DNA of 64,000 nucleotides from Stutzerimonas stutzeri (GTDB lineage: Bacteria > Pseudomonadota > Gammaproteobacteria > Pseudomonadales > Pseudomonadaceae): positions 62,001-126,000 of the forward strand of contig NZ_JAMOIC010000009.1 of the NCBI RefSeq assembly GCF_024448895.1, written 5' to 3'. A program made the translations under genes and the position numbers. Positions 15,474 through 52,335 of the stretch are shown here, in pieces. Numbering within the stretch: the first letter of the stretch is position 1; each line of letters opens with the position of its first letter. The notes under the pieces are model-generated. The model did not search any database and was not told where the DNA came from. It was given only the letters and a program-made list of their open reading frames with translations.

Positions 15474-15485
15474 CCTTGGTAGTGC
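15474..15485 (-). promoter_or_regulatory. Putative AgmR-type box upstream of pqqA
   Basis: On the minus strand this reads GCACTACCAAGG, matching CTACTACCWWGG at 10 of 12 positions, centred about 105 bases upstream of pqqA. A second partial element, TTCCAAAGTACC, lies at about 15447-15458. Equivalent boxes occur ahead of exaC, pedH, pedF, the ABC operon, agmR and the porin. The bound protein is inferred, not shown. Confidence 0.5.
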
Positions 15486-15542
15486 CTCAAGACCAGCGCT
15501 GCTATGGCGCGGCTTTCAGAGCAGTGGCGCCGCTCGTCAGGT

Positions 15543-16664
15543 TCAAACGGGCTGGCGGGTCGCCTGCCGGTCATTCGTACCGCGCCAGGCCAGCTCATTG
15601 GTGACGGTCGCCATGGGCGAAAGCATGGCGAAATCGAACTCGGTCATCTCATCCCCGTCACGGGCGCGAATCGGCCAGTCGTGATTGGCCAGTGCCGCCT
15701 TGCCGATCGCGACCATGTCCATCTCACCTTTGTCGAGCAGCTGCTGCGCTTGCGTACCGGTTTTCACACCGCCGTTGCCGATCACGGGTATCGACACGCT
15801 CGCCTTGGCAATTGCAGACAGCGAAGGTCCCTCTGCAAACGCGGGCGCTGCGGCGTCGCCTTCGGTGGTATGCAGATAGTCCAAGCCCGCCCCCGTCAGC
15901 ATGGCGATACGGATTTTCGCTTCTTCGACGCCACCTTCCCATTTCAGGTGGCTGTTGGTGACCATGATTTGCGAAAGGCGCATGCCGACGATGAACTCTG
16001 TCCCAACTGCGTCACGAACGGCTTTGATCACAGCCAGAGGCAACGCGAGGCGCGCCTGATAATCACCGCCCCACCGGTCAGTGCGTTGATTGAACTCCGC
16101 ACTCATGAACTCGTGCAGCAGGTAACCATTGGCACCGTGCAGTTCAACTCCATCGAACCCTGCATCGCGCGCATGTCGTGCCGCTTGAGCGAAACCGGCG
16201 ATGACTTCCTGAATTTCCTCTTCGCTTATCTCGGCAGGCGTCGAATAAGGGCCTTCGCCGCCATAGAACTTCAGCTGAGACCCTTCGGGTTGGACTGCCG
16301 AGGGCGCGACGTGACGGGCATGGTGAATGTTGCCCTGGGTCTGGGCGCCGCCATGCATGAGCTGCGCGATAAAGGCGGCGCCGGCCTGGTGCACAGCCTC
16401 GACCAGGGGGATCCAGCTGTCGCGCTGAACATCGGTCGCCAGGCCTGGCTGGTTCAAATAGCCTTGGCTGAAGGCTGTGTCGGTGTAGATGCCTTCGGAG
16501 ATCAACAGACCGAATCCACCCTCGGCGAATGCCTGGTAGTAGTCGCGCATCAGCTCGTTAGCGGTGCCTTCTGGCTCGGCGCTGACTCGGGTCATCGGTG
16601 CCAGCACCACACGGTTGCGCAGGCGCAGCTGCTTGAGCTGAGTGGGTTCGAGCAATTGGGGCAT
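15543..16664 (-). CDS. NADH:flavin oxidoreductase / Old Yellow Enzyme family
   Basis: A 373-residue FMN-dependent ene-reductase-like protein. Starting at ATG 16664 (MPQLLEPTQLKQLRLRNR) it shows NRVVLAPMTRVSA, the substrate-binding HGANGYLLHEFM segment, the FMN-phosphate region VIGNGGVKTG and DMVAIGKAALANHDW. It lies between exaC and pqqA on the same strand but is separated from exaC by a terminator (16757-16783), so it probably has its own promoter. The substrate is unknown; a role in detoxifying unsaturated aldehydes would fit the context but is only a guess. Confidence 0.88.
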   Translation of the reverse strand: MPQLLEPTQLKQLRLRNRVVLAPMTRVSAEPEGTANELMRDYYQAFAEGGFGLLISEGIYTDTAFSQGYLNQPGLATDVQRDSWIPLVEAVHQAGAAFIAQLMHGGAQTQGNIHHARHVAPSAVQPEGSQLKFYGGEGPYSTPAEISEEEIQEVIAGFAQAARHARDAGFDGVELHGANGYLLHEFMSAEFNQRTDRWGGDYQARLALPLAVIKAVRDAVGTEFIVGMRLSQIMVTNSHLKWEGGVEEAKIRIAMLTGAGLDYLHTTEGDAAAPAFAEGPSLSAIAKASVSIPVIGNGGVKTGTQAQQLLDKGEMDMVAIGKAALANHDWPIRARDGDEMTEFDFAMLSPMATVTNELAWRGTNDRQATRQPV

Positions 16665-16756
16665 TCGGGAAATCCTCGTTAACGCAGATAGTTCTGAATC
16701 TGAGGCATTGGCAGGCTTTGGAGTTCGGCGCGTGCGATGGCTGGTCGCACGCGCGC

Positions 16757-16783
16757 AAAAAAAACGCGGCCCGGAGGCCGCGT
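16757..16783 (-). terminator. Rho-independent terminator of exaC
   Basis: On the minus strand ACGCGGCC and GGCCGCGT form an 8-base stem with a TCCG loop, followed by seven T. It lies 120 bases past the exaC stop and before the Old Yellow Enzyme start. Confidence 0.85.
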
Positions 16784-16903
16784 TGCGTTGATGAATCACC
16801 GGCCGCACCCAAACGGCCTGCAATCCCCGCACTCAGTGTGCGAGCAAGTTATTCCGGCGCGAGGGAGCGGAACGCGCCGGGTCCACCGAGTTGGGTGCCA
16901 GGC

Positions 16904-18424
16904 TTAGAAGAAGCCCAGCGGGTTGATGTCGTAGCTGATCAGCAGGTTCTTGGTTTGTTGATAGTGGTCGAGCATCATCTTGTGGGTTTCGCGGCCGACG
17001 CCGGATTTCTTGTAGCCGCCGAACGCAGCGTGGGCCGGGTATAGGTGATAGCAGTTGGTCCATACGCGACCAGCCTTGATCGCCCGGCCCATGCGGTAGG
17101 CACGGTTGATGTCGCGGGTCCACAGGCCGGCGCCCAGGCCGAACTCGGTGTCGTTGGCGATGGCCAGCGCCTCGGCTTCGTCCTTGAATGTGGTGATGCC
17201 GACCACTGGGCCGAAGATCTCTTCCTGGAACACGCGCATCTTGTTATTGCCCTTGAGCAGGGTCGGCTGGATGTAGTAACCGCTGGCCAGGTCGCCTTCT
17301 AGACGCTCGGCCGCGCCGCCGGTGAGCAGCTCGGCGCCTTCCTGCTGGGCGATTTCCAGGTAGCTGAGGATCTTGTCGTACTGTTGCTCTGAGGCCTGAG
17401 CACCGACCATTGTCTCGGTGTCCAGCGGGTTGCCGCGTTTGATCACCTTGATCTTCTTCATCACCTCGACCATGAAGGCGTCGTAGATAGATTCCTGCAC
17501 CAGGGCGCGGGATGGGCAGGTGCACACTTCGCCCTGGTTGAAGAACGCCAGTACCAGGCCTTCGGCGGCTTTTTCGATGAACTGCGGCTCGGCGTTCATG
17601 ATGTCTTCAAAGAAGATGTTCGGCGACTTGCCGCCCAGCTCCACGGTCGACGGTATGATGTTCTCGGCGGCGCACTTGAGGATGTGCGAACCGACCGGGG
17701 TGGAACCGGTAAAGGCGATCTTGGCGATACGCTTGCTGGTGGCCAGGGCCTCACCGGCTTCGCGGCCGTAGCCCTGCACTACGTTGAGCACGCCTGGCGG
17801 CAGCAGGTCGCCGATCACCTCCATCAGCACGGTGATCGACAGCGGGGTCTGCTCGGCCGGCTTGAGCACGATGCAGTTGCCGGCTGCCAGGGCCGGGGCG
17901 AGTTTCCAGGCGGCCATCAGCAGCGGGAAGTTCCACGGAATGATCTGCCCGACCACACCCAGGGGCTCATGGAAGTGATAGGCGGCGGTGTGTTCGTCGA
18001 TCTCGGCGGCGCTGCCTTCCTGGGCGCGGATGCAGCCGGCGTAATAACGGAAGTGGTCGGCGGCCAGGGGCACATCGGCGTTCAGGGTTTCGCGCACGGC
18101 CTTGCCGTTGTCCCAGGTTTCGGCCACGGCCAGCAGTTCGAGGTTGGCTTCGATACGGTCGGCGATTTTCAGCAGCATCAGAGAGCGGTTCTGCACGCTG
18201 GTCTTACCCCAGGCGTCGGCAGCGGCATGGGCGGCGTCCAGCGCGCGCTCGATGTCCTCGGCGCCGGAACGCGGAAATTCGGCAATGACCTCACCGTTTA
18301 CTGGCGAGGTGTTGACGAAATACTCACCTTTAACCGGCGGAACGAATTCACCGCCGATGTAGTTGCCGTAGCGTGGTTTGAAGGAAATGACGGAGCCTTC
18401 CGTACCGGGTTGGGCGTAAATCAT
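16904..18424 (-). CDS. exaC: NAD-dependent aldehyde dehydrogenase ExaC/PedI
   Basis: A 506-residue aldehyde dehydrogenase that oxidises the acetaldehyde (or other aldehyde) made by the quinoprotein dehydrogenase. Family marks are [11 protein letters not shown], the general base in ELGGKSPNI and the catalytic Cys in [16 protein letters not shown] 18424 gives [12 protein letters not shown], the usual N-terminus; the frame extends 41 codons upstream through the promoter region. A CTACTACCAAAT box lies about 122 bases upstream. The gene ends in its own terminator. Confidence 0.95.
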
Positions 18425-18545
18425 GAGCGGCCTCTCTATTTGTTCTGCTTGGCGGAGCCTGCCTGGGGGATGGACAGGACATGGAACGATCTTAGGCAGC
18501 CCCGCTGTCGCCCCGGAATTCACCCAAGGGACAGATGCCCTCCTC

Positions 18546-18557
18546 ATTTGGTAGTAG
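18546..18557 (-). promoter_or_regulatory. Putative AgmR-type box upstream of exaC
   Basis: The minus strand reads CTACTACCAAAT followed by GAGGAGG, and is centred about 127 bases upstream of the exaC ATG. It matches CTACTACCWWGG at 10 of 12 positions and shares the trailing GAGGAG with the pedH and pedF boxes. Confidence 0.5.
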
Positions 18558-18598
18558 ATCGGGGCATTCCGGTACGCTTGGCAGCGTGATACAGGCCA

Positions 18599-18760
18599 AG
18601 GGCGAACACGTTCGCCCCTACAAGCGTCAGTGCTGGCTTGTCACGAAGTAACCAATTCATAGCGATCACACTGGCCACTTCGAGCCGTCCGCGGCCGAAC
18701 CCATTCGCCTCCACGGCGACACCAGGTCAGGCTGCTTCTGTAGGGGCGAATTCTTCGCCC
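18599..18760. repeat. REPIN-like inverted pair of REP palindromes
   Basis: The left copy is GGGCGAACACGTTCGCCCC followed by TACA; the right copy is TGTAGGGGCGAATTCTTCGC. The two are in opposite orientation about 120 bases apart, the arrangement of a REP doublet mobilised by RAYT enzymes. Related copies occur at 50690-50955. Confidence 0.6.
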
Positions 18761-18820
18761 AATGCCAGCAAAGCCAGCGCCTGCGATGGCCGAACCGAGC
18801 CCTGCAGGCCCAACGAAAGA

Positions 18821-18839
18821 CCCCGCCATGGGCGGGGTC
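18821..18839 (-). terminator. Probable terminator of pedH
   Basis: ACCCCGCC and GGCGGGGT form an 8-base stem with a 3-base loop about 50 bases past the pedH stop. The minus-strand tail TCTTTCG is only moderately T-rich. An outer AAAG/CTTT pair could extend the stem and make it bidirectional. Confidence 0.6.
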
Positions 18840-18889
18840 CGTTCTTTGTCAGCGCAAGGCTGCATGTCGCTGGTTGACCTGTGAGGCAA

Positions 18890-20668
18890 TCAGCGCTTGG
18901 CGACGACCTGATCCTTCGGCAGCTTGAAGGTCCAGACCATTCCGCCCTGGTTGAAGTCCTTCACGCGTTTGGCCACTTCACCGCCCCACAGCGGTACCGC
19001 GCCGCCCCAGCCGGAAAGCACGGAGACATACTGCTCGCCGTCCATTTCCCAGGTGATCGGCGAGCCGACGATGCCCGAGCCGGTGTTGAATTCGTAAACC
19101 TTCTTGCCGGTCTTGGCATCGAACGCCATCAGGAAGCCTTCCGGGTTACCGGTGAACACAAGGTTGCCCTTGGTGGCCAACACCCCGCCCCATAGCGGCG
19201 CGTAGTTTTCATAACGCCACACTTCCTTGCCGGTCTTGGGATCGACGGCCCGCAGCACACCGATGTAATCCTCGTTCAGCGGATGAATGGTGAAGCCTGC
19301 ACCGAGATAGGCCGCGCCCTTTTTGTAGGCAACACTCTCGTTCCAGATGTCCATGCTCCACTCGTTGGACGGGACGTAAAACAGGCCGGTGTCCTGACTG
19401 TAGGCCATTGGCATCCAGTTCTTTCCACCCAGGAACGACGGCGCAACCGTTACTGACTTGCCCTTGTCGGCATCGCCTGGCGCGCCAGGTCGATTGGCGT
19501 CGTCGTAGATCGGCCGACCGTCCTTATCCAGACCCTTGGCCCAGGTGATCTTGTCCACGAAGGGGAAACCGCGGATGAATTTGCCATTGGTGCGATCGAG
19601 TACGTAGAAGAACCCGTTACGGTCGGCGGTGCCGGCAGCCTTGATGGTTTTGCCGCCGTCTTCGTAATCGAAGGAGATGAGCTCATTCACTCCGTCATAG
19701 TCCCAACCGTCATGCGGCGTCGACTGGAAGTGCCACTTGATCGAGCCATCGTCCGGATCCAGTGCCAGACGAGACGACGAGAACAGGTTGTCGCCCGGGC
19801 GCAGGTGGGAGTTCCAGGGTGACGGGTTACCGGTGCCGAACAGCAGCGAGTCCGTGTCCGGATCGTAATACCCACCGAGCCAGGGCGCGGCGCCGCCGGT
19901 CTTCCAAAGGTCGCCCGGCCAGGTTTTGCCGGCTTCGCCGCCGGAAATACCGTTGTCGACCTTTTTGCCGTCTTTCATCACAAAGCCCATGTGACCTTCG
20001 ACAGTTGGGCGTGACCAAAGAACTTCACCATTCTTCGGGTCATAAGCTTCGATCTTGCCGACCACACCGAACTCGCCACCGGCCACGCCGGTGATCAGCT
20101 TGCCTTTGACCACCAGCGGCGCAGCGGAGATTGAGTAGCCGGCCTTATAGTCTGCGACAGTCTTTTTCCAGACGACCTTGCCGGTGTCCTTGTTCAGCGC
20201 AACCAGCTTGGCATCCAGCGTGCCGAAGATGACGAGGTCGTCATAGAGCGCCACGCCGCGGTTGATCACGTCGCAGCACGGCATGATGCCGTCGGGCAGG
20301 CGCGCGTCGTATTGCCAGAGTTCCTTGCCCGTGCGCGCATCCACGGCAAATACACGCGAGTAGGAACCCGTGAGGTACATGACGCCGTCCTTGATCAACG
20401 GCTGAGATTCCTGGCCACGCTGTTTCTCGCCGCCTAGCGAGTATCCCCACACCGGCCGCAGTTCGGTCACGTTGCCAACGTTGAGCGTATCGAGGGTGCT
20501 GTAGCGCTGGCCTTGCAGCCCCATGCCGTTGGTCACGATCTGATCAGTGGACTTGGCGTCATCGAGAATTTCCTGATCGGTGACTGCCCATGCCGACACG
20601 CTGGAGACGGCCATGGCGGCGCAAAGCGCAGTCAGGGCGAAGGGCTTGCGAAGGCCGGTGTGCTTCAT
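18890..20668 (-). CDS. pedH: PQQ-dependent alcohol dehydrogenase, lanthanide (PedH) type
   Basis: Periplasmic quinoprotein that oxidises ethanol and other alcohols and passes electrons to cytochrome c550. It is 592 residues with a signal peptide to about residue 28, eight propeller blades (repeated GxLxAxDxxTGKxxW motifs) and the vicinal disulfide Cys131-Cys132. The active-site segment [11 protein letters not shown] has the catalytic Asp323 and an additional Asp325. That second Asp marks lanthanide-dependent XoxF/PedH enzymes and is absent from calcium enzymes. Length and sequence match P. putida PedH (595 aa) better than ExaA/PedE (623-631 aa). The metal preference is inferred. Confidence 0.9.
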
Positions 20669-21119
20669 TGCGGCTACCTCTACGGGTTCATTGTTATGTC
20701 GCCGGGAAGTCTTCCCGGTCTAGTGCCGATTCTTGGATCTGGCCGCAGCCGCAACAATTACACGCAGTACCGATTTTTCTCCTCCCTTGGTAGCAATACT
20801 CCACCCAAGCCGCGACATTCCCGGGTCTCAGGAGGAGCGATACAGCACTGCCGTCGGCGTTACATGGATCAGTGCGTGGCCCTCGGTCGAGATCTCGCCG
20901 CCTGACCTCGCCGGCCTGCCCTGTTCCGGCCGTCGCACAGAAGCGATCCAAATCAGCGCGACCGCGCGACCTCATGAGCTGTCAATCATGGAACGAATTG
21001 ATGCCCCCGAGACCACGCCAAGTCGATACAGTAGGCGCCTATCGATCCACGGCCTCATCCATCCACCGCCCTCAGGGCGGCAGGCGAAGCCATTCCGAAT
21101 TCGAGTTCAGGCGTACGAC
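20669..21119. other. Divergent pedH / MFS intergenic region
   Basis: This 451-base gap carries the pedH promoter side with the CTACC box at 20785-20796. I see no convincing second box for the MFS gene. Open frames continue upstream of the MFS start to 20733 but look like random coding without family similarity. Confidence 0.5.
20785..20796 (-). promoter_or_regulatory. Putative AgmR-type box upstream of pedH
   Basis: The minus strand reads TTGCTACCAAGG and continues GAGGAGA. The 16-mer CTACCAAGGGAGGAGA is identical to that at the pedF promoter. The box lies about 117 bases upstream of the pedH ATG. Confidence 0.55.
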
Positions 21120-22319
21120 ATGAAACAGAGCTGGTCCGCGTTTCCCTGGGTGTGCTTCGCGATGTGCGTGGGCGTGATGGGCACCGCGCTCATTTCTCCG
21201 CTGTACCCGCTTTACCAGCAGGCGTGGCAGTTGCGTACCAGCGAAATTTCGTTGATTTACGTGGTGTACATGGTGGGCGCGCTGTTCGGCCTGCTGTTCA
21301 TGGGGCGTCTGTCGGATACGCTTGGTTTCCGCAGGGTCATGCTGACCGGCCTGATACTCGGCTGGGGCGGGACGCTGGTGACGATGCTTGCGTGGAACCT
21401 GCCGAGTCTGAACATCGGTCGCTTTGCGGTGGGGCTGTCATCCAGCCTGATCGTCACCAGCGCCTCGGTGGGCCTGGTGCAGATATCCCGCGATGGGGCC
21501 TCCCAGCGGATATCAATGATCACCAGTTTCCTGCTGGCCTTAGGCTTCGGTCTCGGCCCGCTCACCGGTGGCGTTATTGGCCAGTGGCTGCCGTACCCAT
21601 TGGTCGTTACCTACCTGCCCTCTCTAGGCCTTGGCGTGCTGGCTGTCTTTGCCTTGCTGCGGGTGCAGCTCAAACCTCACCCGGAACTCGCCGCCGCATC
21701 ACCGCTTGGCTGGCGCACCTTCATTCCGCGCCTGACCTGGGCCAAACGAAGCGACGCATTGGCCTTCCTGCTTACCTGCGCCTGCCCTTTTTTCGCCTTT
21801 GGCGTGTTTGGCATCTACGCGTCGATGGCACCGTTGTTCCTGGAAAAGATGCTGCCGTGGCATGGCCCAGTGGTCAGCGGCACGTCCATCGGCGTAATCC
21901 TGCTGGCATCTGCCATGGTGCAACTTGCCTGCGCCCCGATGAGCTTGCGCTGGTGCGGTCTGCTTGGATTGCTGGCGGTGGTGTTGAGCAACGCGATGCT
22001 GGTGCTCAACTTTGCGGTCGGCTCCTCGCTGGTGTTCATCATCGGCGTTTGCGCTGCTGCCGCGGCCCACGGGATGTGCCTCCTGGCCGGCATCAGCATG
22101 GTCAACCGCATCGCCAGTCCAGCCGAGCGCTCGGGACTGATATCGACTTATCTGGTATGCGGCTACGTTGGCGCCATCGCACCGCTGCTTGGCGCTGGCT
22201 GGGTCGCGGACCATTACGGGCTGCCCATGGCGATCAGCCTTCTGGGCTGGGTGGTCATCGCGCTTGCCACGCCGCTTGCTGTCTGGTTTTTTCTGCACCC
22301 ACGGATGCAAGCGAGGTGA
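21120..22319 (+). CDS. MFS transporter
   Basis: A 399-residue major-facilitator protein with about twelve hydrophobic helices. The loop 2-3 signature is GRLSDTLGFRRVM. I start at ATG 21120 (MKQSWSAFPWVCF), because the longer frame to 20733 adds a non-hydrophobic tail unlike any MFS N-terminus. It is divergent from pedH and convergent with kdpE. An MFS gene also follows the erc genes in P. aeruginosa, so it may belong to the alcohol regulon. The substrate cannot be read from the sequence. Confidence 0.85.
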   Translation: MKQSWSAFPWVCFAMCVGVMGTALISPLYPLYQQAWQLRTSEISLIYVVYMVGALFGLLFMGRLSDTLGFRRVMLTGLILGWGGTLVTMLAWNLPSLNIGRFAVGLSSSLIVTSASVGLVQISRDGASQRISMITSFLLALGFGLGPLTGGVIGQWLPYPLVVTYLPSLGLGVLAVFALLRVQLKPHPELAAASPLGWRTFIPRLTWAKRSDALAFLLTCACPFFAFGVFGIYASMAPLFLEKMLPWHGPVVSGTSIGVILLASAMVQLACAPMSLRWCGLLGLLAVVLSNAMLVLNFAVGSSLVFIIGVCAAAAAHGMCLLAGISMVNRIASPAERSGLISTYLVCGYVGAIAPLLGAGWVADHYGLPMAISLLGWVVIALATPLAVWFFLHPRMQAR

Positions 22320-22388
22320 AGGCCGTTGTGAGCCGTTCCAGACGCGAAGCGCATCGGAACAACTACGCAGATCGTCCAGTGGACGAGC

Positions 22389-31826: not shown

Positions 31827-32151
31827 GACCACCACCGTTGATTTCGATTACCTGAGCAAGGCAGCCCCAGCTGGAGCGCATGCTGGTCATCTTGGCGGTG
31901 GCGTGGCGACGGCAGAATCCTGCTTTGGTGGTCGGCGTCTCCTCCCTTGGTAGTAGGCACGTATGGACGCGCCAACGGGCCGCAAGCGAATGCGGGTGCC
32001 ATCCAAGGCAACAGGTTTTGACCGTCGAGTCGGTGGGCGCCTTCCGTTGCCCTGCGGTGCGGGCCGCAAAATACCGGGTGTCGCGTGGCTAGCCGAGCCG
32101 AGGCTTTTGCAGCCCCGGCCCAGCGTTGAGCCCATCGGATAGGGCGATTCT
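31827..32151. other. pedF promoter region
   Basis: This 325-base gap holds the CTACTACCAAGG box at 31945-31956, 119 bases from the pedF start. I see no gene and no terminator for the upstream pectate lyase. Confidence 0.5.
31945..31956 (-). promoter_or_regulatory. Putative AgmR-type box upstream of pedF
   Basis: The minus strand reads CTACTACCAAGG, a perfect match to the consensus, followed by GAGGAGA. The 16 bases CTACCAAGGGAGGAGA are the same as at pedH, and distance to the start codon is also the same within a few bases. Confidence 0.6.
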
Positions 32152-33501
32152 TCAGTGAGGGCGACTGCCGGGTTTGCCAAGCGTCATTACGGGACCAACC
32201 CGTCGCTTGAGCAGCCCCGGGATCGCCTGAGCAGGATGCACCCGCGTGCGCAGCGTCGGCTGCCACGAGGTGTCGGTCACCAGCTGCAGATCAGCCGGCG
32301 CCTGGGCGTTGTAGGCCGCAAGCAGGTCGACCTTGCGCCGATTGATGACGTTGTCCTTGGTCGTGATCGCCTGCCCTTTCCAGTGCTTGATGATCCGTTC
32401 CTGCTTGACCGATGGACTGAAGGTAAAGGCATTTGCCTCTGCCCAGATGTGGGAGTCGTAGCCCACGCCAAACACGTAGCCAAACGAAACGCGGGCATCG
32501 TCATTGCGGACGAAATGGTTGTTGTAGACGTCCGCCTGCCCCCAACGCAGGCGGGGTGCGCGCTGCCCGACGTTGACGAATTCGTTGTGGTGAATGGTGA
32601 CCCGCAGCTTGCCCGGATCGCCCGCCGCCGGAGAATCGGTGGAGCCGATCAGCATCAGCTTGTCGCGGTTCTCGAAGCGGTTGTATGAAACGGTGACAAG
32701 GTCCGATCCGTAGGTGATGTCCACCGACCCGTCGTGCTGCTGGAACGGCCGGCCGAAATACGACGGCGAGAGGTCATCGAAGTCAGGCTCGTCACTGTAA
32801 TAGTTGTGGTCGATCCAGATATTCGACGAGCCATTGATGATCTGGACCATGTCGTATTCGCTGTTCCAGTTCCCGGCCGATCCATCGGTTGGGTCCCACT
32901 GCGGAAAGCAGTCGCTCACGGCCAGATGGTTCAGGTTGCGGACGATAACGTTGCGTTCGCCGTCGATTCTCAGCGACAGGCCGATAAGGCTCGCTTCGGG
33001 GCTCGCGCCAATGATCGTCGTATTGCTGGGCACTTGGAGCAGCATGGTCTGCCGTTGATTCTCGGCTGCCTGCACGCGCGCGCTTTCCGGGCCGCCTGAC
33101 GGCTCGGTGTCCCAACCCCACACTGCCGGGTCGTAAGTGGCCAGGTAGCTTTCGAGGGTATAGCCGGTACCTCGCGCATAGTCATCGCAGCTTAGCGGAT
33201 TGCCCGAATCGTCCGAATTCCCCAGTAGCGTGCCGTGAACCCGGACGATCTTTGGCTGATCGCCGGCCTCGTCGAAGGCGGCCTTCATCTGCGCACGTGT
33301 GGTGACGTCATACACCCGAGCAGGCGTGGCGAACGCACCACCGGTAGTGCCCGCGCCCATGGAAGCGAAGCCGTCCCGAGCCGGTAGCGTCTGTCGTTCC
33401 AAAGGGATCTTGCCCGAATGGGCGACCGTTGATGCAGCAACCGCAATTGGCGACAGTGCGACGCCGAGCGACATAGCCATGAGTGTCACAACATTCCGCA
33501 T
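32152..33501 (-). CDS. Secreted pectate lyase (polysaccharide lyase family 1)
   Basis: A 449-residue exported beta-helix enzyme expected to cleave polygalacturonate by beta-elimination. The start is ATG 33501, with AAGGA seven bases upstream; the signal peptide runs to about VAAS. The family motifs are IWIDHNYYSD (Ca2+ and substrate region) and RAPRLRWG, which contains the RxPxxR catalytic arginine. Plant polymer degradation is not part of the neighbouring pathways, so the gene is out of context between pedF and housekeeping genes. Extracellular action is inferred. Confidence 0.85.
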   Translation of the reverse strand: MRNVVTLMAMSLGVALSPIAVAASTVAHSGKIPLERQTLPARDGFASMGAGTTGGAFATPARVYDVTTRAQMKAAFDEAGDQPKIVRVHGTLLGNSDDSGNPLSCDDYARGTGYTLESYLATYDPAVWGWDTEPSGGPESARVQAAENQRQTMLLQVPSNTTIIGASPEASLIGLSLRIDGERNVIVRNLNHLAVSDCFPQWDPTDGSAGNWNSEYDMVQIINGSSNIWIDHNYYSDEPDFDDLSPSYFGRPFQQHDGSVDITYGSDLVTVSYNRFENRDKLMLIGSTDSPAAGDPGKLRVTIHHNEFVNVGQRAPRLRWGQADVYNNHFVRNDDARVSFGYVFGVGYDSHIWAEANAFTFSPSVKQERIIKHWKGQAITTKDNVINRRKVDLLAAYNAQAPADLQLVTDTSWQPTLRTRVHPAQAIPGLLKRRVGPVMTLGKPGSRPH

Positions 33502-33764
33502 GTTCTTATCCTTATTCTGATTGTTGTCATACTTCACTGGACCGGACTGACCAAAGGGGTCACGCCATCAGCCGATCGTCAGTCTAGGCGGCATTCAGCT
33601 GTCGTCCAGATTGAGATATGACGTCATACCTTACAAAGTGGCTATTTCCGACGAAATGCGTTCTCCTCCGCTGTGCGCTAGGCTCATACGGCGATGAGCA
33701 ACGGCCCCGTCCGTTTCGCGGTTATCTCCAATGCCCGTTTCGACATATCCCCTGGAATTCTTTG

Positions 33765-40782: not shown

Positions 40783-40794
40783 TTACTACCTTGG
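40783..40794 (+). promoter_or_regulatory. Putative AgmR-type box of the PQQ-linked ABC operon
   Basis: TTACTACCTTGG, 11 of 12 to consensus, lies 82 bases upstream of the operon's first ATG and 61 bases from the divergent cupredoxin-like gene. It is followed by TACACAGTGCCTGGTAC, in which GGTAC repeats. Confidence 0.5.
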
Positions 40795-40875
40795 TACACA
40801 GTGCCTGGTACTTTCTGCATATTTCGCCGCAGCGACAGGGTTCCTATGCTGGCCGCAACGCCATAGGAGTCGCCC

Positions 40876-42554: not shown

Positions 42555-42578
42555 CTACAACAACAAGAGAGTCCCACA

Positions 42579-44275: not shown

Positions 44276-44336
44276 TGAGTCTCTACGCGTCGATTTTGCC
44301 CTGCCTCGCTCCATTCTCAGATCAGGAGCCACTGCC

Positions 44337-45128: not shown

Positions 45129-45449
45129 GCAAATCTACTACTTTGGTACTGGTTTTCATGTCCAACGTAGGATTCCAAACAGCTTCGCATTGCTCTGTAA
45201 TGTGGCAGACGGAAGTACTAAAAAAGCCGGATATGCACGTCTTGCAGCGTGGTTGAATTCAAGCCCAGCTTGCCGATCAACACCTTCCGCGCGTGACTGC
45301 CAGCGCTGTTCGTGCGCAGCATTCGGGACGTAAGAGTAAACCGTGCCGAATGGCCCCAGCAGACGCAGAGGCAAGGCTTTGATACGCAACGGATGGCCCA
45401 GCTTATCCCGATCTCTCCCACCATAATCACAACAACGAGGTGACCGGCC
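45129..45449. other. Long region upstream of agmR
   Basis: This 321-base gap holds a CTACTACTTTGG box (45135-45146) immediately after the permease stop. A 32-codon frame at 45158-45256 (MSNVGFQTASHCS...) lacks a ribosome site and similarity. If the box drives agmR, the transcript has a leader near 250-300 bases. Confidence 0.4.
45135..45146 (+). promoter_or_regulatory. Putative AgmR-type box upstream of agmR
   Basis: CTACTACTTTGG, 11 of 12 to consensus and followed by TACTGG. It lies about 304 bases upstream of the agmR ATG, much farther than at the other genes. It could mediate autoregulation. Confidence 0.45.
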
Positions 45450-46115
45450 ATGTACAAGATTCTGATTGCTGATGACCACCCGCTATTTCGCGAAGCCATC
45501 CATAACGTCATCCAGGACGGCTTCCCAGGCAGCGAGATACTTGAAACCGCCGACCTCGACAGCGCCCTGGCAATGACGCTGGAACACGACGACCTGGATC
45601 TGGTCCTGCTCGACCTCAACATGCCGGGCATGCACGGGCTGAACGGGCTGATCAATCTGCGCAACGAAGCGCCAACCATCCCCGTGGTGATCGTCTCCGC
45701 CGAACAGGACAAGCAGGTGGTGCTGCAGGCCATCACCTATGGCGCCTGCGGGTTCATCACCAAATCCTCGCCGCGCGCCCAGATGACCGAGGCCATCGAG
45801 CAGATTCTCAATGGCAATGTCTACCTGCCCTCCGACATCATTCGGAGCCAGAAAGCGACCACTCGCCGCTCCCAGCACAACGAACAGAGCATCGCGCCGG
45901 AGCTGCTGCAGGCACTGACGCGTAAGCAGCTATTGGTGCTGGAACGTATGACCAAGGGCGAATCCAACAAACAGATCGCCTACAACCTGGACATCGCCGA
46001 AACCACCGTCAAAGCCCATGTATCGGCTATTCTGCGAAAGCTCAATGTGCACAACCGGGTGCAGGCCATCCTCTCGGCGGGCGACATCGATTTCACCGCG
46101 TATCTGCGCAGGTGA
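45450..46115 (+). CDS. agmR: LuxR/NarL-family response regulator AgmR (ErbR)
   Basis: A 221-residue activator of PQQ-dependent alcohol oxidation genes. The receiver has the acidic pair in IADDHP, phosphoacceptor Asp in [11 protein letters not shown] and Lys in FITKSSPR. The C-terminal helix-turn-helix is [20 protein letters not shown] followed by [20 protein letters not shown]. The sequence is close to AgmR/ErbR of P. aeruginosa and P. putida as I remember it. The order agmR-nahK-nosP matches PA1978-PA1976-PA1975. It is preceded by GAGGTG. Confidence 0.92.
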
Positions 46116-46780
46116 TTACCAACACCCACGCAGCTATGCTCGCCTCCAGCGATAAACAATGATCCCTTGCAGAACCCCAATCACCGGCCGACGCCACATC
46201 CCGTAGGACCCAGCTTGCTGGCGATCACCGGAATCCAGCGCAGCAGCGGATCGCGAGCAAGCTCGCTCCTACGAAACTGCGCTGCTCTACCGTCCGCTTT
46301 GTGCGTTACGCTCGCCTAGCCGCGAACTCGGGGCCTCCCCGCAATACGCCACGGCCTTCGCCACCCCATGTAGGAGCCAGCTTGCTGGCGATCACCGGAA
46401 TTCAACGTAGCCGCGGATCGCGAGCAAGCTCGCTCCTACGAGACTGCACTGTCCTACCGTCTACTGTGTGCGTGACATTCGCCAAGCCGCAAACGCAGGA
46501 CCTCCCGCAATACGCCACGGCCTTCGCCACCCTATGTAGGAGCCAGCTTGCTGGCGATCACCGGAATCCAGCGCAGCAGCGGCTTTTACGAGACTGCACT
46601 GCCCCGCCGTCTACTGTGTGCGTGACATTCGCCAAGCCGTAAACGCAGGTCCACCCGCAATACGCCACGGCCTTCGCCACCCCATGTAGGAGCCAGCTTG
46701 CTGGCGATCACGGGGCGCGCGCCTAGCGATTGGCCAACGGCGTCAGCGCCGCCGGGCGCTTGCGGATCAAGCCTGACGCT
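46116..46780. other. REPIN-filled gap between agmR and nahK
   Basis: This 665-base non-coding stretch between convergent genes is mostly the tandem array at 46201-46712. Frames within it are repeats of the array and not genes. I see no separate T-tailed terminator. Confidence 0.7.
46201..46712. repeat. Tandem array of ~166-base REPIN units
   Basis: The left REP (GTAGGAGCCAGCTTGCTGGC; the first copy has GTAGGACCCAGC) starts at about 46203, 46370, 46536 and 46686, giving periods of 167, 166 and 150 bases. Units 1 and 2 also contain the inverted REP GCGAGCAAGCTCGCTCCTAC. Unit 3 has lost about 16 bases of it, and unit 4 is only the left REP. Spacer text (AATACGCCACGGCCTTCGCC) is nearly identical between units, so the whole unit was duplicated in tandem. 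Confidence 0.85.
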
Positions 46781-49357
46781 CTAGGAATGGCCCTGTTCCA
46801 TCATGTGGCACATGGCGGTCTTCAGTTTCATCGGGCGAACCGGCTTGTGCATCAGCATATGGCCCAGCTCACGCACCTGCAGCTTGAGCTCGTTGCTGTA
46901 ATTGGCAGTGATCATCAGTGCCGGCAGCGGGCTCGCTCGCCGCGCGTTGACGGTCTCGACCACATCCACGCCGTTGCAGCCGTTATCCAGGTGGTAGTCG
47001 GCGATGATCAGGTCAGCGTCGGCATGGAAGTTGTCCACCTGGCCGGCAAGATCCTGCTCTGATAAAGCGGTGATGACATGGCAACCCCAGCCTTCGAGCA
47101 GCGTGCGCATCCCCGCGCAGATGGCCGTGTCGTTATCGATCACCCAAACGCGCGCACCCTTGAGCCGTTCGAGCAAAAGATCCGTCGTGGCGGGCTCGAC
47201 CGCAGCCTTGGGCGCGCGTCTGGCCAGAGGCACTTCGATGGCGAACTTCGAGCCGCGGCCCGGTACGGACTTGACCTGGATACGGTGACCGAGAATGCGC
47301 GCGATTTTTTCCACGATCGCCAGCCCCAGCCCAAGCCCGCGATCCTGCTGCGGACGCACACCCTCCCCGCGTTTGAATTCGTGAAAGATCTCTTCGAGCT
47401 TGTCCTCCGGGATGCCAATGCCGGTATCCCAAACTTCGATCGACAAACTCTGGCGACGGCGGCGACAACCCAGCATCACGCGGCCATGGGGCGTGTAGCG
47501 GATGGCATTGGTCAGCAGATTGCGCAGGATGCGCGCGAGCAGTTGGATGTCACTGCGCACCAGCGCTGAGCAGGGAATGAAGTCCAGTTGCAGCCGTTCG
47601 CTGCCGGCCAGCTGACGAAACTCGACCGCCAGGTTTTCCAGCAATTCGCTGACAGCGAAAGGCGCGATATCCGGTTTGATGACCCCGGCGTCGAGCTTTG
47701 AGATGTCGACCAGCGTTCCGAGCAGGTTCTCCACGTCTTCCAGTGAATTGCTGATATTGCGGATCAACCCGCCGCTGGGCGCCGTCGGCTGTTCCAGTAA
47801 CGCACTGGTGAACAGCCGCGCGGCGTTGAGCGGCTGCAGCAGGTCGTGGCTCACCGCTGCGAGAAACTTGGTCTTCGACAGGTTGGCCAGTTCGGCTTCA
47901 CGCTTGGCCTCGCGCAGCCGCGCTTCGGCATGGGCACGCTCGTCGATCTCGCACAGCAGCTGGTCGTTGAGGCTGGTCAATTCCGCCGTGCGCTCGCGCA
48001 CCCGCTGTTCGAGATTCTGGTAGGCCTGATGGAGCGCTTCGGCGGTGCGGCGGCGGTCGGTGATGTCCTGGATCAGCACGAAGATGCCCACCACTTCACC
48101 GGCGGCCTGCCGATTCGGCACATAGGAACGCAGCATGTAACGCTGTTGCCCGGAATGGTTGTGCTCGGCCATCTCGAAGCTGACGCTCTCGCCGGACAGT
48201 GCGCGATCGATGTAGGGCTCCAGCTCTCGCCAGTGTTCGCCGCTGTGAATATCACGCAGCGACTGGCCGAGCATGCCGTCGCTGGGCCAGCGGTACCATT
48301 CCTCATACACCTTGTTGGTGAATTCGTAGGTCAGGTCCGCGGAAACGTAGGCGATCAACGCCGGAACGTGGTCGGTGATCAGGCGAATCCAACGCTCGCT
48401 TTCGCGAAGCGCTTCGGCGTGACGATAACGCTCAGTGATGTCGGTGAAGGTATTAACGAAGCCGCCGGTAGGCAGCGGGTGCGTGCGGATCTCCAGCGTG
48501 CGGCCATCGAACAGGTGCTGTTCCATCTCGGCCAGTGGCTGGCCGTTGGCGTCGAATGTGTTTGGCGTGAGGAGTTTCAATTCACTATCGGCCATCACCT
48601 CTTCGAAAGGACGATGCGCCTCGATCGGCGCCAAACCACAGAGTTCGAGGAAGCGGCCGTTCCACAACTCCAGACTGCCATCGGCGCTGACCATGGCCAC
48701 GCCCTGGGACAGGTTGTCCACGGCACGTTGCAGCAGGCGGGACTTCTGTGCCAGAGCCTGTTCACGGCGCATGGTCTCGCTGATCTTCACCTCGGTAATG
48801 TCGGTATAAAGCATCACCAGGCCGCCCTCCCGGGTCGGCCGCTCGCTGACCTGAACCCAGCGCCCAGTGTGCAGACGGTAAACGGTGGGCTCGTTGGCCT
48901 TGCCACGGTGCTCTTCGGCAATCAGGCCGCTGCTTTCGGCCAGCCGCTTGAGCTCCGACAGACGTGTGCCGCTGTTGATGCGCGCTCGGGTACGGCTCCA
49001 AAGTGATTTGAAGCGCTTGTTGAACAGGACGATGCGCTGATCCTTGTCGAACAGCACGAAGGCGTCGGAAATGCTTTCGATGGCGTCCACCAGATGCTGG
49101 TGAGCCGTTTCCGCCCGCAGGCGCGCGTCGCTGAGCAAGCGGTTACTGGCTTTGAGTTCGGCCATCGCCTGGTTGAGCGCATCGGTACGCTCACGAACCT
49201 GCTCGGCCAGCTCCACCGAGTGCTGGAAGGCCGCGTAGGACGCATCGCGACCGGTTCCACTGGATTCGATACGTTCGATCAGCGCAGCATTGATTCGCCG
49301 CAGCTTGTGGTTCTCGCGTTCGAGCTCCGCTTGTCTGTCGAGCTGTTCAGCGAGCAC
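46781..49357 (-). CDS. nahK: Multi-PAS hybrid histidine kinase NahK (ErcS')
   Basis: An 858-residue soluble hybrid kinase. In P. aeruginosa NahK is controlled by the nitric-oxide sensor NosP and is also known as ErcS' in ethanol-oxidation control. A coiled coil and PAS domains (about 80-550) precede SHDLLQPLNAARLF with the phosphorylated His, an ATPase domain (GLGLGLAIVEK) and a receiver with Asp in IIADYHLDNG. I start at GTG 49357, with GGGAGG upstream and an 11-base overlap with nosP. The ATG at 49432 would overlap nosP by 86 bases. Confidence 0.88.
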   Translation of the reverse strand: MLAEQLDRQAELERENHKLRRINAALIERIESSGTGRDASYAAFQHSVELAEQVRERTDALNQAMAELKASNRLLSDARLRAETAHQHLVDAIESISDAFVLFDKDQRIVLFNKRFKSLWSRTRARINSGTRLSELKRLAESSGLIAEEHRGKANEPTVYRLHTGRWVQVSERPTREGGLVMLYTDITEVKISETMRREQALAQKSRLLQRAVDNLSQGVAMVSADGSLELWNGRFLELCGLAPIEAHRPFEEVMADSELKLLTPNTFDANGQPLAEMEQHLFDGRTLEIRTHPLPTGGFVNTFTDITERYRHAEALRESERWIRLITDHVPALIAYVSADLTYEFTNKVYEEWYRWPSDGMLGQSLRDIHSGEHWRELEPYIDRALSGESVSFEMAEHNHSGQQRYMLRSYVPNRQAAGEVVGIFVLIQDITDRRRTAEALHQAYQNLEQRVRERTAELTSLNDQLLCEIDERAHAEARLREAKREAELANLSKTKFLAAVSHDLLQPLNAARLFTSALLEQPTAPSGGLIRNISNSLEDVENLLGTLVDISKLDAGVIKPDIAPFAVSELLENLAVEFRQLAGSERLQLDFIPCSALVRSDIQLLARILRNLLTNAIRYTPHGRVMLGCRRRRQSLSIEVWDTGIGIPEDKLEEIFHEFKRGEGVRPQQDRGLGLGLAIVEKIARILGHRIQVKSVPGRGSKFAIEVPLARRAPKAAVEPATTDLLLERLKGARVWVIDNDTAICAGMRTLLEGWGCHVITALSEQDLAGQVDNFHADADLIIADYHLDNGCNGVDVVETVNARRASPLPALMITANYSNELKLQVRELGHMLMHKPVRPMKLKTAMCHMMEQGHS

Positions 49358-50540
49358 CGCGCCCTCCCGGCCGGCCGATGGCGACGCCAGTGAAGGTCTG
49401 GTTGATGTGCATGCCATTGAACTGCTCTCCATAGGTGTTGAAGCCGATCACCTGCTGGCGTTGAAGAAAGGCGGAAACGTCGTCGGCCGAGCCGTGGCCG
49501 TCGATTTCCAGCCGCCGCAGAAAGCAATCACAGCCAATGGTCAGCAATGGCGATCCCAGTCGCTGCTCGAGGCGCTCGAACAGGGCTTCGAGATTGGGCA
49601 TCAGCGGGCCGGGGCGCATCGCGGTGAGAACGATGCCGTTCTCCACGGCGCAGTAGAAGGTCAGGCTGAGATCGTCATTGACCTTCTGGATCGAGCGCAC
49701 GTAGTAGTGCTCGTTGATGCGCACCGCCAAGGGGTGTGCGGCGAAGAGCAGATGATCGAGATCGCTCACCTCGACGCCGATCAGCCGGGCGTACTCCTCA
49801 GCCGCCGGCTCGGCGTTGAGTTCATAAACACGCCGGGCATGGCTGTCGACGCGGGTCACAACCAGCTTTTCGCTGCGCGGCAAGATGTGGTGCGTGGTGA
49901 ACACCTCGAAATCCAGCCAGGTGTTGATCAGCACGACGATGGCCGCCCCGCTGTGGAATTTGCCGTCGTAGTACACGTGGGTATCGGTCAGGTGATTGTC
50001 GTCCCCAGCCGAACCGCCAAAATGCGGGATGCTGCCGAACGCCGCGCTGAGCGCGGACAGCACCACCTCTTCTCGACTGGACAAGCCGTCAAGCAGCGTC
50101 AGCGCGAAGCTGTGGTCCTTGATCGGTGCCAGGGAATTGCTGCGGCAATCGCTGCCCAGTCGCTCGACCAGTTGCTGCGCATCGATGAGGCTGAAACGAT
50201 CCATCTCGTCGATCAGCTCGCAGGCAATGGAAAAGCTGCGGTGATCGAAGCCTACGGCCGTCACGCAGCTGCGGCCGTAGCCTTGGGAGGTGATCTCACC
50301 GGCTGACGTGCAACCGACCATACGCACGCCGCCGAAATACTGATGCAGCGCATCGCCGAGGGCTGGCAGGTCGTACTCGGCCGAGCAGAAAAACAACACG
50401 AAACCCAGATGCGGATGGATAAGCTGGCGCGCGAGGTCCTGGGCTACCGTCTCGGCATCACGGGCTTCGGACATCGCTGTGCGTACTACCGATTCATGCT
50501 CCACGCCCCAACCCCGCACACCGTTATCGTATGACCCCAT
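49347..50540 (-). CDS. nosP: FIST-domain haem protein NosP (nitric-oxide sensor)
   Basis: A 397-residue FIST N- plus C-terminal domain protein. Orthologues in pseudomonads (PA1975) bind haem, sense NO and inhibit the adjacent kinase NahK, controlling biofilm dispersal. Readable segments are GGVRMVGCTSAGEI, FGGSAGDD and IGCDCFLRRLE, typical of FIST proteins. The first ATG is at 50540; GTG 50504 or ATG 50474 are possible later starts and no clear ribosome site decides. It overlaps nahK. Confidence 0.85.
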   Translation of the reverse strand: MGSYDNGVRGWGVEHESVVRTAMSEARDAETVAQDLARQLIHPHLGFVLFFCSAEYDLPALGDALHQYFGGVRMVGCTSAGEITSQGYGRSCVTAVGFDHRSFSIACELIDEMDRFSLIDAQQLVERLGSDCRSNSLAPIKDHSFALTLLDGLSSREEVVLSALSAAFGSIPHFGGSAGDDNHLTDTHVYYDGKFHSGAAIVVLINTWLDFEVFTTHHILPRSEKLVVTRVDSHARRVYELNAEPAAEEYARLIGVEVSDLDHLLFAAHPLAVRINEHYYVRSIQKVNDDLSLTFYCAVENGIVLTAMRPGPLMPNLEALFERLEQRLGSPLLTIGCDCFLRRLEIDGHGSADDVSAFLQRQQVIGFNTYGEQFNGMHINQTFTGVAIGRPGGRGAR

Positions 50541-50586
50541 TCTTGGTCAGGCCATTGGGTACGAAAATGCTACTTCAGTACCGGCT

Positions 50587-50924
50587 GCGGCCTGCCAAGG
50601 TCGCAAAGTGATGAAGAGCGGGAGCTGGATCGCTGATATTGGTAGGCCCAGCTCCGTCCGAAAGCCAGGGCGGCTGGATGACCAAGCGGGCGAATAAATT
50701 CGCCCCTACGGTGACGCCGTGGACTTTCGCTGGCGGTCGGAGCCGTGCTTGAGGACTGGCAGCGGCCTGCCGAGATCACAAAGTGATGAAGAGCGGGAGG
50801 CTGGATCGTTTTTAATGGTGGGGCACAGCTCCGTCCGAAACCCAGGACGGATGGATGACCAAGCGGGCGAATAAATTCGCTTCTACAGTGACGCCATGGA
50901 CTTTCGCCGGCGGTCGGAGCCGTG
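50587..50924. repeat. Direct duplication of a ~161-base REP-containing unit
   Basis: Copy 1 runs about 50587-50747 and copy 2 about 50762-50924, a period of 175 bases. Both begin GCGGCCTGCC, share AAAGTGATGAAGAGCGGGA and CGGGCGAATAAATTCGC, and end GCGGTCGGAGCCGTG. A further inverted REP, TGTAGGGGCGAACTTGTTCG, follows at about 50933-50954. Confidence 0.75.
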
Positions 50925-50994
50925 CAGCTCATGTAGGGGCGAACTTGTTCGCCCGAACGATGCAGCGTCAGCCGCGATTGGATGCGTTCTACGC

Positions 50995-51024
50995 AAAAAA
51001 AACGGACGCCTTCGAGGCGTCCGT
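50995..51024 (-). terminator. Rho-independent terminator of the porin gene
   Basis: On the minus strand ACGGACGCCT and AGGCGTCCGT form a 10-base stem with a 3-base loop, followed by seven T. It begins 18 bases after the porin stop. Confidence 0.9.
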
Positions 51025-51041
51025 CTGTGTCGCGGGTTGGC

Positions 51042-52229
51042 TTAGAAGCTCAGCGCGGCGCCGATGGCGTAGGTTCGTGTGTCTTCGTCGATGGCGTCGG
51101 TATCCCGGCCGGTCAACTCGAACTGATTCACCTCGGCAACCAGCTTCAGGTTGTCGTTGATGGTGCGGAAATACGCGATGCCTCGGGTTTCGTAATCGGC
51201 GGCTGTGCCCAGCCCGTTGCCGTCATCCTTGGTCTTGCCTGTTGAAAGTGCGATGCGATTCTTGCCGAAGCTGTAGGAGCCCTGCAGCAGATAGCCGTCG
51301 CTGTCTACGTCACGCAACTGCGCTTCGCCGGCGTTGTTGGTATAGAACGGGTTGATACCTTCGGCCTGGAAGCCCGACGCCGTAACAGAGAAAGCGCCCA
51401 TCTTGGCCTGCACGCCGTAACCAATGCCCTTCGAATCGATTTCCTCGACCGTGCTGTCGGTGTTCTTGGAGGTCTGTTGCATGCCGTTGACCCAGGAATA
51501 GATCTGGGCGCCCGCAAGATCGAACTGGTAAGTGATCTCCGTTTCGAAGCGCGGGCTGTCCTGATAGGCCTCGTCCAGCGCGCTGCTCGCATCGTCTGTC
51601 GTATCGACCGGATCCATGATGCCGGCAGCGATACGCAGGCCGCTCATGACAGGCGAGCGATAGGTTATCTGCGAAGTCGGGAACGGGTATGGGTAGCCCG
51701 TACCGATGTTGCCGAACGAAACGCCGCCAAAATCGACCAGCCCAAGGGTGTCGCTGACCTGACCGTAACCGGCGAGCATCTCGTCGAGAAAGATGTTCGA
51801 CCGACCGAACAGGCCGAAATCCTTACCGAAAAGCACTTCACCCCACTGGTCGTTGGCTGCTGTGCCGTAGAACTGGCGAACGTCGATGCCGGTCTCGGTG
51901 CCATTGGTGTCGCTGTCGTTGATCGAGACCCAGAACGAGGAGCGACCTCCGATCTTCAGCTCATCGAGCTGTTTGCCAAAGTTGAACCCGATGTAGTTGG
52001 GTAGAAAGCCCATTTTCACCCGCGACTGGTCGCGGTCGAACTGCTCACCGGCTCGATCGACATCGCTGCTGACGTAAAAGGTATTGAAATAACCGTCGAC
52101 CGAGAACGTGGTGTCGTCCTTGTCGTACAGCTTTATCTCGGCGACCGCCGACTGGCTGAGGCTCATGGCAATCGCGCTGGCCAGGGCCATTGGCAATAGA
52201 GTGGTAACCGTTTTCTTGTTGTTCTGCAT
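51042..52229 (-). CDS. Outer-membrane porin (Gram-negative general porin family)
   Basis: A 395-residue exported beta-barrel with a signal peptide ending QSAVA-E and a C-terminal strand finishing YAIGAALSF, with the terminal Phe required for barrel assembly. Strand patterns such as FNTFYVSSDVD and KMGFLPNYIGFNFGK are present. It probably admits small substrates. A CTACTAC box and 11-base direct repeats lie upstream, so it may belong to the alcohol regulon. The substrate is unknown. Confidence 0.85.
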   Translation of the reverse strand: MQNNKKTVTTLLPMALASAIAMSLSQSAVAEIKLYDKDDTTFSVDGYFNTFYVSSDVDRAGEQFDRDQSRVKMGFLPNYIGFNFGKQLDELKIGGRSSFWVSINDSDTNGTETGIDVRQFYGTAANDQWGEVLFGKDFGLFGRSNIFLDEMLAGYGQVSDTLGLVDFGGVSFGNIGTGYPYPFPTSQITYRSPVMSGLRIAAGIMDPVDTTDDASSALDEAYQDSPRFETEITYQFDLAGAQIYSWVNGMQQTSKNTDSTVEEIDSKGIGYGVQAKMGAFSVTASGFQAEGINPFYTNNAGEAQLRDVDSDGYLLQGSYSFGKNRIALSTGKTKDDGNGLGTAADYETRGIAYFRTINDNLKLVAEVNQFELTGRDTDAIDEDTRTYAIGAALSF

Positions 52230-52323
52230 GGCGCTCTCCGCTGATGTGACGACGGGCAGTCGTGTCGAGGCGGATTATCGAAAGCGCGGCTGCAGGCACA
52301 TACGCTGCGATAGCGGCGACTGG

Positions 52324-52335
52324 CTACTACTTTGG
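52324..52335 (+). promoter_or_regulatory. Putative AgmR-type box upstream of the porin (reversed)
   Basis: CTACTACTTTGG, identical to the agmR box, lies 95 bases from the porin start but on the opposite strand from its transcription, unlike the other members. It is followed by CCTTGG. Confidence 0.4.

Follow-up and report, generated by a model that had tools for sequence, protein, structure and literature searches.

A pair of operators standing in tandem upstream of the genes for pyrroloquinoline quinone (PQQ) synthesis and alcohol oxidation was recognized in a stretch of 64,000 nucleotides from Stutzerimonas stutzeri (NCBI RefSeq assembly GCF_024448895.1, contig NZ_JAMOIC010000009.1, positions 62,001 to 126,000; hereafter the window), whose host genome has 5.39 Mb. 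The original prediction, made from the letters of this window, held that a shared 12-mer marks a PQQ/alcohol regulon, that its copies precede pqqA, exaC, pedH, pedF, an ATP-binding cassette (ABC) operon, agmR, and a porin gene, and that the response regulator AgmR (PedR1/ErbR) is the obvious candidate to bind it. Our analysis points to a real, regulon-wide tandem operator of the kind known from NarL and from ACTU, the motif of CrbR/ErdR, which is most likely AgmR's. We give a probability of about 0.7 to the reading that these are tandem two-operator promoters, each likely bound twice by AgmR, that serve regulon-wide activation. The boxes, their spacing, their conservation, and, at pqqA, their co-occurrence with AgmR are properties of the DNA itself.

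Architecture of the promoters

All seven 12-mer sites were found at the places given for them, with no mismatch at pedF, one at the ABC operon, agmR, and the porin gene, and two at pqqA, exaC, and pedH. At pedF, pedH, and exaC, the word continues into GGGAGGAG or ATGAGGAG and thereby becomes an arm of an imperfect palindrome, 18 bp long and of NarL 7-2-7 type. In box 1 of pedF, TACTACC-AA-GGGAGGA, two inverted 7-base arms lie 2 bp apart, as in NarL-type 7-2-7 sites, while several box-2 sequences fit this inverted repeat more weakly. The arm consensus of NarL is TACYYMT, and TACTACC agrees with it at five of seven positions when compared by reading. The distance of about 80 to 122 bases given for the 12-mer at six of the seven sites is consistent with the distances measured here from the 18-bp box to the start codons that we assigned (pqqA, 93; exaC, 115; pedH, 110; pedF, 112; ABC operon, 75; porin, 94; agmR, 297).

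Alignment of relatives on box 1 brought out another conserved block and, beyond it, one resembling a -10 element, at nearly the same offset from one gene group to the next. Homozygosity in a scripted alignment of six gene groups was high at columns 0–18, about 24–44, and about 57–67, and none of 2000 random shifts equaled the best block; for the pqqA group the anchor was box 2 and one base of the spacer was omitted, a choice of which the other five groups are independent, and the relatives of exaC and porin were too few for this alignment. The centers of the two boxes in the window lie 22 bp apart at six promoters, 23 bp apart at pqqA, and 21 or 22 bp apart at agmR, and a -10-like hexamer begins 30 to 32 bp beyond the center of box 2. 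The predicted word is thus real but incomplete: it covers one palindrome arm, each promoter has two boxes, and the promoter of nosP-nahK was missed.

From this arrangement, we infer AgmR binding, cooperation, activation, and the transcript starts. The 12-mer would be the better-conserved arm of the upstream operator in a regulon-wide promoter, and each operator, with its 7-base arms 2 bp apart, would have the geometry of a NarL-type dimer site. Centers about 22 bp apart correspond to two helical turns, so that two regulator dimers would lie on one DNA face. If the hexamer begins at -12, the operators would be placed near -43.5 and -65.5, and a good -35 element would be unneeded. Phosphorylated AgmR would bind both boxes and recruit RNA polymerase when alcohol is sensed, and the predicted targets comprise pqqA-E, exaC, pedH, pedF, the ABC operon, the porin gene, agmR itself, and the probable kinase operon nosP-nahK.

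Specificity and conservation of the composite

With up to two mismatches, the 12-mer has 16 matches in the window against 4.84 expected, a number that none of 100 shuffles reached; two of the 16 (20779+ and 31939+) are the opposite arms of the pedH and pedF palindromes. The genome-wide scan gave no such enrichment, with 48 matches at up to one mismatch against 104 for the backwards pattern. Since this control differs from the 12-mer in word content, we used composite scoring of the tandem arrangement instead. Own-genome composite scores taken at the 48 matches separated four in the regulon, which carry the composite (score at least 12), from the other 44, which do not (best 7.1). The full palindrome was likewise not enriched in the genome (38 matches at up to three mismatches against 90 in the control), nor was a second IUPAC variant (13 against 84); the sites of the full palindrome with up to two mismatches were those of pedF, exaC, and pedH, and agmR has three mismatches. 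The 12-mer as a mark of the regulon therefore stands in part: a shared cis-regulatory code is strongly supported, but the word alone fails to find the regulon genome-wide.

An ungapped composite scan of the window returned seven matches of at least 25.1, whereas 20 shuffles of the window went no higher than 12.9. With each gene left out of training in turn and the spacing allowed to vary by ±1, the eight composites of the window scored 15.3 to 41.0, agmR (15.3) being the weakest, and the largest of 300 shuffled pieces scored 9.5 with the full model. Among relatives, leave-one-gene-out scoring detected the composite at pedF in 32/32, the ABC operon in 59/60, pedH in 8/8, exaC in 2/3, porin in 39/42, and nosP in 28/43 cases, against 4/249 for control genes (pedA2, 1/60; pedB, 3/60; pedC, 0/59; pqqF, 0/27; nahK, 0/43). 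These counts omit loci with less than 170 bp upstream, matches that start after residue 60, and matches below the identity limit; pedG (16/16) was not counted as a control, since its upstream region takes in the pedF promoter. Over 80 loci (1,596,126 bases) there were 258 composite matches of at least 15, 188 of them upstream of a query gene at a distance of up to 420 bp, and shuffles of 40 loci gave one. Forty of the 70 remaining matches were read: 32 lie about 0.5–0.8 kb upstream of agmR, mostly before a rhodanese-type gene, five are of pedF type at locus edges, and three are of other kinds.

On a simple palindrome score, the pedF box reached at least 14/18 in all 32 pedF loci, about 100–140 bp upstream, with a complete match to CTMCTMCCWWGGKAGKAG (18/18) in 11 of them, and the ABC operon reached 14 in 41/60 loci, against 0/60, 0/60, and 0/59 for the internal operon genes pedA2, pedB, and pedC. 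The weaker groups, counted at the same limit of 14, were agmR (12/80), porin (5/42), and nosP (14/43).

That the pedS2-like gene makes divergent use of the ABC boxes was considered and rejected as a general feature, since 6/36 loci passed the 99% null on that strand, with a model trained on the same ABC sites. In L093, L085, L057, L075, and L097 (about 220–260 bp upstream of the pedS2-like gene) and in L104 (at -75), the ABC-side boxes also read as a composite toward that gene, so that a single pair of boxes may work in both directions.

The composite at pqqA

AgmR was found (E up to 1e-60) in 209 of the 398 family genomes, and since pqqA also occurs without AgmR, this gene offers a natural experiment. 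The sample, of our own choice, comprised 120 pqqA stretches from 100 of the 318 matching genomes. In the search for boxes at pqqA, matches at -19 to -25 were taken as artefacts of ribosome-binding sites (RBS) and were removed by restricting it to -160 to -45. The composite was scored with pqqA left out of training. It was present in 51 of the 55 copies that were linked to agmR or were the sole copy fetched (36/40 sole and 15/15 linked), and in 2 of the 40 copies from genomes without AgmR; these counts omit six stretches of unknown linkage (three pass) and 19 unlinked copies (three pass). In 15 genomes with two copies, the agmR-linked pqqA carried the composite in 15/15 cases and the other copy in 0/15. 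Because the genomes are related to each other, Fisher values are not true probabilities here. The pattern of pqqA box 2 was present in 52 of the 61 pqqA upstream regions with AgmR, unlinked copies omitted. As a separate observation, many AgmR-containing genomes of the genus (g15, e.g., G271 and G268) have two pqqA copies, of which only one lies near agmR and has the composite.

Identity of the regulator

AgmR is the likeliest binder of the boxes, as suggested by the co-occurrence at pqqA and by the published dependence on PedR1 (the literature is cited here, and below, from the parts of the texts within our coverage). PedR1 is described as acting directly on ped genes (PMC13390443), and the KT2440 genes dependent on it are pedE, pedF, pedI, and pedS2R2, with induction of the pedE and pedS2R2 promoters abolished by deletion of pedR1 (PMC13390443). 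In Escherichia coli, all three sensor constructs respond, most strongly with added PedR1 (PMC13390443), and dependence of the pqq operon on AgmR has been published as well (PMC12997753). Whether PedR1/AgmR acts directly or only via PedR2 is in dispute (PMC13390443), and the activator of the lanthanide-dependent pedH was called unknown in 2018 (PMC6115532).

Several observations weigh against this reading: (i) four of the 40 sole pqqA copies from AgmR-containing genomes fail, and three passing copies, in the drafts G007 and G135, lie on other contigs than agmR; (ii) two of the four AgmR-lacking congeners with pqqA (G117 and G129) pass the composite test, and two more AgmR-lacking genomes, the congener G229 and G130 from another genus, pass the single-box test, so that the contrast of 51/55 with 2/40 is qualified by two to three AgmR-lacking congeners that keep boxes; (iii) agmR itself passes in 3/80 loci with a rigid model over 500 bp, and 15/43 nosP upstream regions fail; (iv) the second boxes of pedH, porin, and agmR are, by eye, poor palindromes; (v) the E. 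coli data fall short of an effect due to PedR1 only, as the sensors without added PedR1 responded too (PMC13390443); and (vi) the recognition helix of an ErdR-like protein (TIKAHVTAIFRKL), the closest own paralogue of AgmR at 46% identity, is nearly identical to that of AgmR, whereas three other own regulators differ. The proposal of AgmR as binder thus draws on pqqA and on PedR1, but it is weakened by the near-identical ErdR helix and by the two congeners that keep the composite without AgmR.

The low count at agmR has a likely cause. In 62 of the 80 related loci, promoter and agmR are separated by a rhodanese-domain gene that resembles PP_2666 in its position, and the idea of a composite directly before agmR in all species was abandoned. 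In front of the rhodanese-type gene, the rigid model finds the composite in 20/64 cases and the model with ±1 spacing in 59/64, 21 bp between centers being the best fit in 39 of those 59. The agmR site of the original prediction is present in the window, but in most related loci it belongs before this other gene; window positions 45153–45449 contain no significant remnant of a rhodanese-domain gene. The eighth composite (score 32.5 in the ungapped scan) precedes nosP and a kinase gene, and the regulator would thus also drive the probable kinase of its own; in KT2440, a similar pair, PP_2663 and PedS1, is part of the ped cluster (PMC12997753).

As for G117, G129, and G229, box 2 differs in each by one base from CTCCTTCCAAAGTACCAT, which is unchanged in six AgmR-containing congeners and differs in others. 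The flanking parts of their 20-kb pqq regions (L279, L280, and L281) are collinear with the window, and pqq and pqqF are kept; these regions gave no match for exaC, the dehydrogenase, pedF, pedG, the ABC operon, agmR, nahK, nosP, or porin, AgmR alone having been sought outside them. The gaps in the alcohol module there are several and separate, as though it had been lost or gained piecemeal. We read the boxes as traces of a recent loss with decay, the rival account being retention for ErdR.

ErdR (CrbR, the partner of MxtR/CrbS) might indeed own the boxes, alone or together with AgmR, which would tie the alcohol genes to acetate sensing. Besides the nearly identical recognition helices, this is suggested by the CrbR motif ACTU (e.g., TACTACCATCGTCGAAT at acs), an imperfect palindrome of related form that spans -52 to -36, where we would place box 2 (PMC5715377), and by a review in which CrbRS is proposed to act upstream of agmR in Pseudomonas aeruginosa (PMC12997753). 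A model of the five published sites of the 17-bp ACTU consensus gave box-1 medians of 9.0–10.2 for pedF, the ABC operon, and agmR (95% null 3.1–6.1), but at other boxes it was at chance level (pedH, 3.4 and -0.4, with a 95% null of 6.7; pqqA box 1, 0.5; also porin box 2); group medians ran from -4.1 to 10.2, and the five published sites scored 16.6–23.6 but had also trained the model. The co-occurrence at pqqA speaks against ErdR too: pqqA lacks the composite in 38/40 AgmR-lacking genomes, while an ErdR-like protein is present in 7/7 AgmR-lacking congeners examined, four of which are those checked for ErdR among the 40. Deletion of erdR in KT2440 affected growth on acetate and not on ethanol (PMC12997753), and AIDmut-Seq of ErdR detected acsA and neither ercS nor agmR (PMC9927353). 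Taken together, we consider ownership by ErdR unlikely. At acs in the own genome, reading by eye recognized no ErdR box.

A division of labor between AgmR and ErdR, each reading one of the two boxes at the agmR promoter if not elsewhere, would create an AND gate for alcohol and acetate signals on one DNA face. In 10 of the 40 rows read, the end of agmR box 2 is ACGTCGAAT, which resembles the right arm that ACTU has at acs; the division of labor as such seems to us quite unlikely.

The boxes, or at any rate those of pedH, might instead belong to the lanthanide-responsive LuxR-type regulator PedR2/ExaE. A LuxR-type regulator encoded at G000:C25:46556, which from its place we infer to be PedR2, has a counterpart of 60–90% identity near agmR in 53 of the 80 related loci, and PedR2 regulates pedE and pedH in KT2440 (PMC6115532). 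Its recognition helix (GKTVSNYLTLLKSKL) is unlike that of AgmR, the KT2440 pedS2R2 promoter needs PedR1 only (PMC13390443), and pedE-type genes themselves lack a composite (the best of 21 usable matches scores 3.1; a 22nd is an artefact), all of which makes PedR2 very unlikely. Also outside the window, at G000:C25:48684 (L293, about 1001–1070), we noticed a decayed ABC-operon promoter with box 1 and half of box 2 intact, adjoining a histidine kinase and a PedR2-like regulator; the region looks like a broken or moved ped locus.

Finally, that the similarity reflects chance, shared promoter ancestry, or RBS-like sequence (GGAGGAG) is scarcely credible, even though the bare 12-mer is not enriched genome-wide and certain pqqA matches around -20 were judged to be RBS artefacts, since three conserved blocks align across gene groups with differing upstream regions, the 258 composite matches in 1.6 Mb face one in shuffles of half the loci, and the boxes sit upstream of the proposed -10, whose hexamer follows GGAGGAG, an arm that moreover varies between species.

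Gene content and coordinates

The protein families found in the window include PqqB, PqqC, PqqE, PqqF, ExaC, a PQQ alcohol dehydrogenase, PedF, AgmR, NosP, an alcohol-type ABC operon, a hybrid kinase, a porin, and KdpABC with KdpDE-like regulators. AgmR was named from its domains and from the surrounding cluster rather than by comparison with an annotated AgmR. The protein is 95–98% identical to AgmR in several Stutzerimonas genomes, the 80 related loci encode proteins 87–98% identical to it, and its best match among solved structures is NarL. The hybrid kinase was called nahK/pedS1-type from its domains and its position next to nosP. The alcohol dehydrogenase is closest to PDB 6zcv/6zcw, which we take to be PedH, and has D-Y-D where 6zcv/6zcw have D-F-D and 1flg has D-F-S. 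D-x-D marks lanthanide use, and the enzyme looks like one that the pedH label fits. Since the -10 candidate of nosP overlaps the first ATG of the longest open reading frame (ORF), the true start is probably near codon 23; the NosP model match begins at residue 22. Upstream of pedF, a minus-strand ORF (32152–33537) encodes a pectate lyase domain (PF00544, E 3.6e-42).

Table 1. Boxes, -10 candidates, and regulatory genes in the window. Scores are leave-one-gene-out composite scores; OP, site of the original prediction.
Feature	Coordinates	Strand	Score	Remark
pqqA -10 candidate CTTAAT	15416..15421	-		
pqqA box 2 (CTCCTTCCAAAGTACCAT)	15445..15462	-		23 bp center-to-center from box 1
pqqA box 1 (7-2-7-type)	15468..15485	-	16.8	OP
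exaC -10 candidate TAAGAT	18489..18494	-		
exaC box 2	18518..18535	-	41.0	
exaC box 1	18540..18557	-		OP
pedH -10 candidate AAGAAT	20729..20734	-		
pedH box 2	20757..20774	-	20.3	
pedH-type alcohol dehydrogenase box 1	20779..20796	-		OP
pedF -10 candidate CAAGAT	31889..31894	-		
pedF box 2	31917..31934	-	28.0	
pedF box 1 (CTACTACCAAGGGAGGAG)	31939..31956	-		OP; best palindrome
ABC (pedA-type) operon box 1	40783..40800	+		OP
ABC operon box 2	40805..40822	+	19.2	
ABC operon -10 candidate TATGCT	40845..40850	+		
agmR box 1	45135..45152	+		OP
agmR box 2	45157..45174	+		by eye, 22 bp; model prefers 45156-45173, 21 bp
agmR -10 candidate TGTAAT	45196..45201	+		
AgmR (PedR1/ErbR)	45450..46115	+		response regulator with GerE/LuxR-type helix-turn-helix; proposed binder
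nosP and hybrid histidine kinase	46781..50540	-		downstream of eighth composite
nosP -10 candidate AAGAAT	50539..50544	-		
nosP-nahK box 2	50567..50584	-		
nosP-nahK box 1	50589..50606	-	24.5	absent from original prediction
porin -10 candidate GATAAT	52274..52279	-		
porin box 2	52302..52319	-	16.1	
porin box 1	52324..52341	-		OP, there on opposite strand

Comparison with known systems

The regulon itself is already known, and a tandem operator for it is seemingly unpublished in the literature covered. No published AgmR operator was found in our search, figures, supplements, and key regulon papers lying outside its coverage; the portions of text examined of PMC9927353, PMC8402216, PMC9603970, PMC9927547, PMC13086498, and PMC6115532 gave none, and the main text of an HT-SELEX study (PMC8041468), as far as covered, does not contain AgmR or PA1978, its motif tables being a place that may hold related motifs. 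The ErdR logo of PMC9927353 may also hold one. The operator pair predicts direct targets, including pedH, the porin gene, and nosP-nahK, gives exact bases to mutate, and offers a compact alcohol-responsive promoter design for engineering of Pseudomonas putida.

The closest system by content is the AgmR/PedR1/ErbR regulon of P. putida and P. aeruginosa, which covers the same kinds of genes (the pqq operon, the ped cluster, an aldehyde dehydrogenase, and its own regulators), but for which the texts, in the parts covered, give no operator sequence (PMC12997753; PMC13390443). EmaR of Acinetobacter baumannii is likewise a two-component regulator of ethanol metabolism and has been compared with PedS1R1 (PMC13390443), but the boxes described here do not resemble its motif as predicted by MEME, CTTATxxxxAT(A)xAT (PMC9603970). 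ACTU of CrbR/ErdR (Sepulveda and Lupas 2017, PMC5715377) is, like our boxes, an imperfect inverted repeat, with a TACTACC-like left arm at acs; it lies just upstream of the promoter, and the protein that reads it is a paralogue of AgmR whose recognition helix is almost the same. ACTU differs in having one site per promoter, a GTC-type right arm, and acetate genes as targets, whereas here two sites about 22 bp apart precede PQQ/alcohol genes. The tandem layout itself recalls E. coli ogt, in which two NarL 7-2-7 operators occur, one at -44.5, and where, in a construct, NarL also activates from -67.5 (PMC7419079); the natural ogt sites, at -44.5 and -77.5, are 33 bp apart, whereas the spacing here is about 22 bp and recurs at eight promoters.

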